From: an uncultured bacterium
GTDB taxonomy: Bacteria > Bacillota_I > Bacilli_A > RF39 > UBA660
Direction of reading: 5' to 3'
Length of the DNA stretch: 35,947 nucleotides
Assembly (NCBI GenBank): GCA_949288335.1
Contig: CASEJU010000016.1
Span: 1-35,947, forward strand
A model generated the notes under the pieces. That model was given only the letters and a program-made list of their open reading frames with translations, made no database searches and was not told the DNA's origin. Position 1 is the first letter of the stretch, and every line of letters starts with the position of its first letter. A program made the position numbers and the translations under genes. This document shows positions 9,957 to 33,513 of the stretch, one piece after another.

Positions 9957-10682
9957 ATGAAACAAATAATACCTTTTGTAAAAGATATAAGTTTGTCAAC
10001 TAAAATATCAGAGATAACTAGCATTGCTTTAGAACATAATCTTACGATGGAAAATGATGATTCTATCGTTGGTAATTTTACTATTAGTGGTAAATATAAA
10101 ATAAACGAAATAAGCATAAATGAAGAGGTGTTTGAAAAAGTAATACCATTTGATATTACTTTAGACGATAAGTATGATGCTAGTAAGGTTAAAATAGATA
10201 TAGATGATTTTTACTACGAAATAATTAATGATGAATATTTAAGAGTACATATTGATGTTTTGGTTAATAATTTAGTTTATTTAAAAAAAGATGAAGAAAT
10301 CATTAAGGAAAACAATAAGAATAATGACTTAAATGAGGCTGTTTTCTTAAATGATGTTTCTGATGATTTGATAGAAAAAGAAAATAATAATAAAGGTGAT
10401 GAAAGAAAAGTGATGGAAGAAAAAGAAATTATAAATGAGAATACCAAAGAAAATGAAGATGTAACCATAAAAAGTGAAGAAAACATAGTAAATGATTTAT
10501 CATCTAATTTTCTTAATAGTGAAGAAAAGTACGTGTGCTATAAAGTTCATATCGTAAGAGAACAAGAAACCATAGAACAAATAAAGGAAAAATACGAAGT
10601 AACTGATGAAGAACTAGCTAAATATAATGATTTAGAAAACATTATGATAGGAACGAAATTAATAATTCCGTCTAACGAATGA
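9957..10682 (+). CDS. spoVID: SpoVID-like spore coat morphogenetic protein with C-terminal LysM domain
   Basis: The 241-residue protein matches SpoVID at both ends. The N-terminal SPOCS-like domain (about 1-105) has IVGNFTISGKYKI, IPFDITLDD and VKIDIDDFYYEI, followed by RVHIDVLV. A very acidic, low-complexity linker (about 110-185) follows, much shorter than in B. subtilis. The C-terminal LysM (about 192-239) reads YKVHIVREQETIEQIKEKYEV and ends GTKLIIPSNE. In B. subtilis SpoVID localises coat proteins to the forespore and its LysM binds lipid II. The stop overlaps the next start (ATGA), and that gene is a YsxE homologue, exactly the B. subtilis spoVID-ysxE pair. GGAGATGATT precedes the ATG. 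Confidence 0.85.
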   Translation: MKQIIPFVKDISLSTKISEITSIALEHNLTMENDDSIVGNFTISGKYKINEISINEEVFEKVIPFDITLDDKYDASKVKIDIDDFYYEIINDEYLRVHIDVLVNNLVYLKKDEEIIKENNKNNDLNEAVFLNDVSDDLIEKENNNKGDERKVMEEKEIINENTKENEDVTIKSEENIVNDLSSNFLNSEEKYVCYKVHIVREQETIEQIKEKYEVTDEELAKYNDLENIMIGTKLIIPSNE

Positions 10683-18299: not shown

Positions 18300-18367
18300 A
18301 ATTTTTTTTAATATTTTAGGGGAATTTTTAAAAAAACGGAGAATAATTAAATTAGGAGGACCTTTTT

Positions 18368-33100: not shown

Positions 33101-33199
33101 ATGAAGATTAAAACGAATTATGATATTTTAAAAGAAATAGGGCATTCCAAAGAAGGAATTAAAACAAATGTAAATAAAAGACGTAAGAAAACAACTTAA
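33101..33199 (+). CDS. candidate 32-residue basic peptide
   Basis: ATG 33101 is preceded by AAAGGAG with 10 nt spacing. The frame encodes a soluble, lysine-rich peptide (MKIKTNYDILKEIGHSKEG then a basic tail NKRRKKTT) ending at TAA 33197-33199. A terminator hairpin uses its last codons, so the whole is a compact monocistronic unit of about 110 nt. The sequence AAAAAATGTAGTAATAT just upstream resembles the greA promoter region, though a -35 is not clear. No family is recognised; coding is supported only by initiation and termination signals. Confidence 0.5.
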   Translation: MKIKTNYDILKEIGHSKEGIKTNVNKRRKKTT

Positions 33200-33209
33200 G
33201 TCTTTTTTT
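33178..33209 (+). terminator. terminator of the 32-residue ORF
   Basis: AAGAC-G-TAAG (33178-33187) pairs with CTTA-A-GTCTT (33195-33204), loop about seven nt, T run to 33209. Confidence 0.7.
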
Positions 33210-33244
33210 AAGGAAATTATTAAATAAGTGTCTAACAATTAAAA

Positions 33245-33279
33245 TGAAAGAACCTAATTATTGGGTATTAGCTTTCCAT
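33245..33279 (+). repeat. left hairpin repeat of the candidate toxin-antitoxin locus
   Basis: It contains TGAAAGAACCTAA (33245-33257) and CTTTCCAT (33272-33279). It can fold on itself (GAAAG with CTTTC, CTAAT with ATTAG). The inverted copy lies at 33441-33476: the 13-nt and 8-nt outer blocks are identical in reverse complement. Confidence 0.75.
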
Positions 33280-33304
33280 CTTTTTATGAAGAATAGAAAG
33301 GTGG
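33276..33304 (+). promoter_or_regulatory. hairpin sequestering the Shine-Dalgarno sequence of the 26-residue membrane peptide
   Basis: CCATCTTTTTAT (33276-33287) pairs over 12 bp, with two G-U wobbles, with ATAGAAAGGTGG (33293-33304) around a five-base loop. The paired right arm includes the ribosome binding site AAAGGTGG. In the folded mRNA initiation at ATG 33313 would be blocked. Confidence 0.7.
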
Positions 33305-33312
33305 TGATACTT

Positions 33313-33393
33313 ATGAAATATGAAACTAAGTTTCAAAGAGTAATAATTGTCCTTTTGATTTTATTGTTAGCCTTGCTAATATTTAAAATATAA
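33313..33393 (+). CDS. candidate 26-residue single-helix membrane peptide (type I toxin-like)
   Basis: AAAGGTGG (33297-33304) stands eight nt before ATG 33313. The peptide is MKYETKFQR plus a C-terminal hydrophobic helix (VIIVLLILLLALLIF) ending KI. Short peptides with one membrane helix are typical of type I toxins (Fst, TxpA, Ldr and others), but no named family is recognised and the Fst proline and charged tail are lacking. Its mRNA leader has a Shine-Dalgarno-masking hairpin and a repeat hairpin, and transcription converges with an opposite-strand RNA at the shared terminator. A plain small membrane peptide with no toxic role is the alternative. Confidence 0.6.
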   Translation: MKYETKFQRVIIVLLILLLALLIFKI

Positions 33394-33395
33394 AA

Positions 33396-33429
33396 GAAAA
33401 AGCGTACCCAAGGGGGTGTACGCTTTTTC
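33396..33429. terminator. bidirectional terminator shared by the convergent RNAs
   Basis: A perfect 12-bp stem GAAAAAGCGTAC (33396-33407) / GTACGCTTTTTC (33418-33429), 10-nt loop. T5 on the plus side; T5-C-T4 on the minus side. Confidence 0.8.
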
Positions 33430-33440
33430 CATAGTATTTA

Positions 33441-33476
33441 ATGGAAAGTTACTAACCTTAAAGTTAGGTTCTTTCA
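33441..33476 (-). repeat. right hairpin repeat of the candidate toxin-antitoxin locus (inverted copy)
   Basis: ATGGAAAG (33441-33448) and TTAGGTTCTTTCA (33464-33476) are reverse complements of the left repeat blocks. The inner hairpin is CTAAC/GTTAG. Confidence 0.75.
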
Positions 33477-33484
33477 CCATTTAA

Positions 33485-33513
33485 ATTATACAATATAATT
33501 AAAAACATGTAAA
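33485..33513 (-). promoter_or_regulatory. strong minus-strand promoter of the candidate antisense RNA
   Basis: On the minus strand TTTACA (33508-33513), exactly 17 nt, consensus TATAAT (33485-33490). It lies just behind the stop of the methyltransferase gene. Confidence 0.7.

Follow-up and report, generated by a model that had tools for sequence, protein, structure and literature searches.

The locus analysed here is, with a probability of roughly 0.7, a chromosomal type I toxin–antitoxin module, in which sigma-H would gate the synthesis of a toxin mRNA that masks its own ribosome-binding site (RBS), and a constitutively made antisense RNA would serve as the antitoxin. It lies near the end of the window, i.e. 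the whole 35,947-nucleotide stretch of DNA that was analysed, which corresponds to contig C16; the genome measures 1.08 Mb in 82 contigs. The initial annotation of this DNA had proposed a toxin–antitoxin pair of this kind; the sigma-H-type promoter of the toxin and the multicopy nature of the module were absent from it and are added here. This would link a type I toxin to its host's sigma-H/competence promoter, and the timing of toxin expression is predicted from the sequence, which makes the purpose of chromosomal type I systems directly testable.

Architecture of the module

The candidate toxin ORF (33313–33393, plus strand) encodes a 26-aa peptide, MKYETKFQRVIIVLLILLLALLIFKI, which on direct reading is a single hydrophobic helix. 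The predicted toxin mRNA spans positions 33243–33434 of the plus strand, its start being deduced from the promoter and its end from the terminator. The leader begins with a hairpin (33246–33276, plus strand; GAAAG...CTTTC with inner ACCTAA/TTGGGT) that forms one half of an inverted repeat pair, and continues with a second hairpin (33276–33304, plus strand) whose arms, CCATCTTTTTAT and ATAGAAAGGTGG, make 12 pairs and enclose the entire AAAGGTGG site. This 12-bp hairpin, which had been claimed earlier to pair the site in full, belongs to the minimum free energy (MFE) fold. Downstream of the ORF, a perfect 12-bp stem (GAAAAAGCGTAC/GTACGCTTTTTC, 33396–33429) represents a bidirectional terminator shared by both strands.

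On the minus strand, a promoter of the housekeeping type (33485–33513; TTTACA-17-TATAAT, 11 of the 12 consensus bases) is predicted to drive an antisense RNA of about 85–90 nt (33391–33478, minus strand; start deduced from the promoter), the putative antitoxin. This RNA carries a 5' hairpin (33443–33475, minus strand) that is the inverted homologue of the mRNA 5' hairpin, and a middle hairpin (33429–33444, minus strand; CCAT...ATGG). A repeat search returned the inverted repeats as two pairs of segments (33245–33266 with 33455–33476 and 33263–33279 with 33441–33457), each of them 82% complementary. The terminator region is the stretch in which the toxin mRNA and the antisense RNA are fully complementary. 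The ORF, the RBS hairpin, the terminator, the antisense promoter and the inverted repeats had all been called in the initial annotation, and each was found where it had been placed.

Between nusB and the module (33101–33199, plus strand) there is a short ORF remnant, MKIKTNYDILKEIGHSKEGIKTNVNKRRKKTT, with a terminator of its own; in genome G005 a different remnant is found.

Promoter-like sites are common by chance in this DNA (3 found vs 4.3 expected). Promoter and repeat matches alone are weak in AT-rich DNA and conservation was therefore used as the test.

Copies, conservation and phylogenetic distribution

At the DNA level, most of the 18 genomes of the genus gave matches, up to 12 per genome, and G001 has the module in tandem copies. 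For comparisons, we extracted 44 distinct complete loci. The complete copies combine a hydrophobic ORF of 24–28 aa, a masked RBS, a two-way terminator, a convergent antisense RNA and inverted 5' hairpins. The proposal of the initial annotation withstands most of the refuting conditions listed with it: the peptide, the hairpins, the terminator and the antisense promoter are kept together in dozens of diverged copies, and this joint conservation supports the proposed Fst/par-like layout with inverted, not direct, repeats. The antisense promoter shows the same class of boxes (TTTACA/TTGATA-like, a spacer of 16–18, TATAAT-like) in 42 of the 43 scored copies, the remaining one being cut by a contig end, and the antisense RNA is predicted to be made constitutively from this sigma-A promoter.

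The genome that contains the window has further copies with a peptide (L002, L006, L112 and L116), one copy that ends at a contig end (L004) and two decayed ones (L003 and L005). Another decayed copy (L126, G000:C80) retains the leader and the sigma-H-type promoter; its toxin ORF is cut after ∼12 codons and the 3' half is replaced.

Covariance models, applied to a sample in which each genus of the family was represented by a single genome, found the module solely in the genus of the window, so that the covariance search envisaged in the initial annotation detected relatives within this genus and none in the other genera sampled. There were no matches to the window family in viral contigs, phages and plasmids, and nothing in Rfam at the curated threshold. 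The named records that hold copies are metagenome assemblies of uncultured Bacilli, one of them labelled 'Clostridium sp.'; the word 'Lapin' in many isolate names suggests the rabbit gut as the host habitat.

Over 32 distinct 26-aa ORFs, the pN/pS ratio is 0.49, compared with a mean of 1.18 and a minimum of 0.54 in column-shuffled alignments; the toxin ORF is under purifying selection. The peptide consensus is MKKE-x-FLKVIIILLILLL-x-ILIFKI, with a diverged clade that reads MRFKFEIKFTPKLIIILLIIVILLIII. The peptide is charged at its N-terminal end and the aligned C-termini read ..ILIFKI or similar, with no W. Searches of Pfam, NCBIfam and PHROG gave no meaningful match, in agreement with the earlier view that the peptide belongs to no known family. 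We infer that it is toxic and acts on the membrane.

RNA structure and pairing

The RNA from the leader to the terminator folds far better than its shuffled versions (z = −5.1), and the same is true of the antisense RNA (z = −4.9). In the folded copies, the RBS hairpin starts with the CC of CTTTCC; the set that was folded includes three copies mis-anchored by the script and one (L040) without an anchor. This hairpin covaries, its pairs 3 and 4 being seen as A-U, U-A, C-G, G-C and others, and the terminator stem likewise covaries among the copies. The antisense RNA consists of three hairpins. Pairing reaches 95% of cells in the outer stem of hairpin I; the middle hairpin is free in sequence, yet 81% of its cells are paired vs 59% in shuffled sequences. 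RNAalifold, run on MAFFT alignments, did not yield a structure, since loops that differ in length were misaligned, and structure was tested instead with anchored arms and given structures.

Both RNAs begin with a common hairpin, GAGAG-ACCTAA...GGTTAG-CTTTCC. The homology of the two inverted 5' hairpins, noted earlier from the window, exceeds chance (24.4 of 32 positions shared vs 11.9 in shuffled sequences; mean of 44 loci), and the two hairpins of a locus resemble each other more than they resemble those of other loci in that genome (permutation p = 0.0002). Being close to a palindrome, the repeat leaves the two RNAs partly complementary even with its copies inverted.

The initial annotation had placed RNA pairing at the terminator and through the loops of the 5' hairpins. 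Only the former stood as a site of specific recognition: duplex energies at the terminator averaged −71.2 kcal/mol for cognate and −41.0 kcal/mol for non-cognate RNAs, with the cognate partner being the best in 43 of the 44 cases, whereas energies of the 5' parts were equal for cognate and non-cognate RNAs (p = 0.81). Kissing of the 5' hairpins was rejected as the cognate recognition step, as cognates are not favoured in energy. Locus specificity resides in the terminator. The loop of the antisense terminator contains CUUG in the window and lacks it in some copies (the U-turn motif YUNR was examined); a U-turn loop is not universal in Fst systems either (PMC7472228).

The toxin promoter and sigma-H

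The sigma-H-type promoter of the toxin (33209–33236, plus strand) comprises a −35 element TAAGGAAAT at 33209–33217, N12, and a −10 element GTCTAAC at 33230–33236; in an alternative reading with an 11-nt spacer, the −35 element is AAGGAAATT at 33210–33218 (plus strand). Nearly all copies have this motif as AGGGGNATTTTAAAA-N5-GTCTAA and its variants. A strict search with at most three mismatches found 13 sites in the window genome and none for a reversed control pattern. Genes at these 13 sites include comEA-comEC, a C39-peptidase ABC exporter, a GH25 lysozyme and an ABC transporter.

The comEA gene is preceded by a sigma-H-type promoter in all 18 genomes of the genus, with boxes that vary in some of them. 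A scoring matrix made from comEA promoters alone gave means of 31.7 for toxin promoters and −6.7 for antisense promoters; the toxin promoter of L073, as excised, scored low. Within the window, the matrix ranked a site upstream of dnaG-rpoD first (27.3) and the toxin promoter (33210) second (20.9), while random windows peaked at 5.7–11.6. That first site is a second sigma-H-type promoter (18318–18355, plus strand; AGGGGAATT-N11-GGAGAAT) and an independent anchor for the promoter type; in relatives, five more dnaG loci have the same promoter, their −10 element being GAGAAT or GCGAAT. A sigma-H-type promoter also precedes several C39 exporter and GH25 lysozyme genes. Toxin promoters are closer to the comEA promoter of their own genome than to those of others (28.8 vs 24.8 of 38 positions; 38 of the 43 loci).

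The sigma-H consensus is RNAGGAWWW-N11/12-RNNGAATWW. Against this consensus and the Listeria boxes, the window toxin promoter fits in its spacing and −35 element and is degenerate in the −10 element, where GTCTAAC differs from GAAT at two positions; elsewhere the −10 element is GAAGAAT in the G001 copies, GGCGAAC at comEA and GGAGAAT at dnaG. The Listeria sigma-H promoters of comEA, comGA, the dnaG-rpoD operon and lytG have boxes that are 11 nt apart, the comEA promoter being AAAGGAATT-N11-GGCGAAT and the −10 element of comGA GAAGAAT (PMC4754846), and the toxin and comEA promoters described here agree with those promoters in spacing and, apart from the degenerate −10 element of the window toxin promoter, in boxes. 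A SigH-like gene lies between rlmB and nusG, an assignment by best hit and synteny with a score below the NCBIfam curated cut-off. Because the promoter is shared with comEA and dnaG-rpoD, resembles that of Listeria and is accompanied by a SigH-like gene, the toxin mRNA is probably transcribed by sigma-H. A keyword search of the literature found no report of a sigma-H or comEA-type promoter on a type I toxin.

The genes for SigH-, SigE-, SigF-, SigG- and SigK-like factors (L208:1399-2037, L204-L207) make up the set of a spore-former in a very small genome. Among other loci with the promoter, L118 is a GH25 lysozyme gene that also has a leader hairpin, a candidate competence- or transition-phase lysin. 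At L116/L119, a toxin copy is found directly 5' of a gene for a C39-peptidase ABC exporter, which shares the promoter type and apparently starts with a codon other than ATG. At L120 (G000:C45, ∼10500–10611, minus strand), adjoining rnc, a sigma-H-type promoter is followed by a 24-aa ORF, MKDKKIFAFLFMFIYIIFSLYDFL, that begins a few bases from the predicted start and is flanked by a 13-bp inverted repeat (GAAGGATAAGAAA/TTTCTTATCCTTC), perhaps a further small-peptide unit.

Gain and decay at the nusB locus

The site with nusB on its 5' side and an adjoining methyltransferase gene is common to six genomes, with the toxin intact in three and lost in three. The module is intact in G000, in G005 and, up to the contig end, in G012. 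In G014 the toxin is lost and the antisense unit is kept together with its promoter. G017, with defects in start codon and frame, and G007 have a broken toxin and also a deleted antisense −35 element. In G001, G004, G008 and G009, nusB lies directly beside the methyltransferase gene, with no module. The locus reads as one of gain and decay in which the toxin appears to be the first to go where the order is visible, clearly so solely in G014; a toxin broken before the antisense gene is the loss order expected of a toxin–antitoxin pair. A peptide broken in relatives with persisting repeats, which the initial annotation had listed as evidence against its proposal, is what is seen at this site in G014, G007 and G017; intact copies are found within this same genus.

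Proposed mechanism and alternative explanations

The short antisense RNA, made from a constitutive sigma-A promoter, would have the terminator in common with the toxin mRNA and so be complementary to its 3' end over the full length of that region. The loops would likely make the first contact, from which the duplex would spread, and the toxin mRNA would be silenced and/or cut, putatively by RNase III, the gene for which is present in the genome. With its RBS hidden in a hairpin, the mRNA would yield little toxin even without antitoxin until the leader is remodelled. Since the toxin mRNA would come from a sigma-H-type promoter, the module should be off in growing cells; it would be challenged once sigma-H is on, the toxin mRNA being made together with comEA-comEC and other transition-phase and competence genes.

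More tentatively, and with the odds somewhat against it, the copies may form a competence-gated family of several paralogous toxins, expressed under sigma-H along with comEA-comEC, a secreted lysozyme and peptide exporters, so that a cell whose antisense RNA falls behind would stop growing, die or lyse. If so, these fates would strike cells entering competence or early sporulation, and the module would serve as a checkpoint, as a device for DNA release or, selfishly, as a guard that keeps it from being replaced through recombination.

An unlikely alternative takes the peptide for a non-toxic small membrane protein that belongs to the sigma-H (competence/transition) programme and whose dose the antisense RNA fine-tunes. 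Both its charged start and conservation and the promoter common to comEA, dnaG-rpoD, lysozyme and exporters would suit such a protein; however, double repression by a masked RBS and a strong constitutive antisense RNA is typical of toxin–antitoxin systems and would be unusual in a housekeeping peptide that the cell needs, and multicopy occurrence, patchy presence, empty sites and decay are likewise toxin–antitoxin-typical.

Among known type I systems, the module most invites comparison with par(pAD1)/Fst, which has a convergent mRNA and short antisense RNA, a shared bidirectional terminator, a hairpin on the Shine–Dalgarno site, an mRNA 5' helix and a small single-helix hydrophobic peptide (PMC7472228). 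The window module resembles it in the convergent promoters (as sequence), the shared bidirectional terminator and the Shine–Dalgarno stem-loop. It differs in its unrelated peptide, with the charged end N-terminal and not C-terminal, in the near-palindromic inverted repeats of its 44 copies, which contrast with the direct repeats DRa/DRb of Fst, in its sigma-H-type toxin promoter and in its multicopy chromosomal nature. The layout in which both RNAs begin with the same hairpin is absent from Fst models. Descent from Fst/par, with peptides linked through intermediates, could explain the convergent RNAs, shared terminator, masked RBS and 5' helix (PMC7472228), but is very improbable, as the aligned peptides lack the Fst signature of a tryptophan (or V) between the helix and a charged C-terminus, having neither a conserved tryptophan nor a charged C-terminus, have no P/D/S/TxxxG motif in the helix, match no Pfam or NCBIfam profile and come without direct repeats. 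The module would work like Fst/par and, to judge from these features, stands outside the Fst family.

Type I systems of Clostridioides difficile resemble the toxin–antitoxin module proposed here in combining a small hydrophobic toxin, an antisense RNA and an alternative sigma factor (sigma-B), with sigma-A and sigma-B elements reported for toxin and antitoxin genes (PMC7699646). They show that type I systems can be under the control of alternative sigma factors. There, both elements were reported on both genes, whereas in the window module only the toxin has the sigma-H-type promoter. ComI is a single-pass peptide of ∼30 aa, possibly with an antisense RNA, and we know of no promoter link between it and comEA. 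It is reported to be an inhibitor of natural transformation encoded by Bacillus subtilis plasmid pBS32 (cited in PMC10601692); ComI is plasmid-borne, whereas the window module is chromosomal.

Least likely of all is a MITE-like mobile element with the inverted hairpins as terminal inverted repeats and an incidental ORF, a reading in keeping with the inverted repeats, multicopy intergenic occurrence, G001 tandem copies and empty sites but at odds with conservation that extends past the repeats into two different promoters, with purifying selection on the peptide, covariation of the masked RBS, the lack of matches in viral contigs, phages and plasmids, and a nusB site shared by six genomes.

A second family with the same architecture

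A weak DNA match led to L027, a locus in another genus that serves as the type locus, and through it to a separate set of loci in several other genera, which belong to the same family as the genus of the window. Members of this second family encode a 25-aa hydrophobic peptide (MTKRE..SQFIIILLLF) and have an RBS in a hairpin, a terminator and inverted 5' hairpins, GGATACATTTGA...ATCAGATG. They are alike to the window family in architecture and unrelated in sequence; the toxin promoter is sigma-A-like in the second family and of the sigma-H type in the window family. These would be two small-toxin families, both unlisted, that share one architecture, and together they supply many loci fit for RNA-structure models. 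The second family is multicopy in some genera, and some pairs are 80–91% identical, which suggests transfer between genera; viral contigs gave no match to a second-family pattern. In L148, both hairpins, the RBS hairpin and the terminator are altered together. Loci L131-L148 have a small palindrome (CAAGGAAACTTG, GAAGGAAACTTC) just 5' of the −10 element of the antisense promoter, a possible repressor site.
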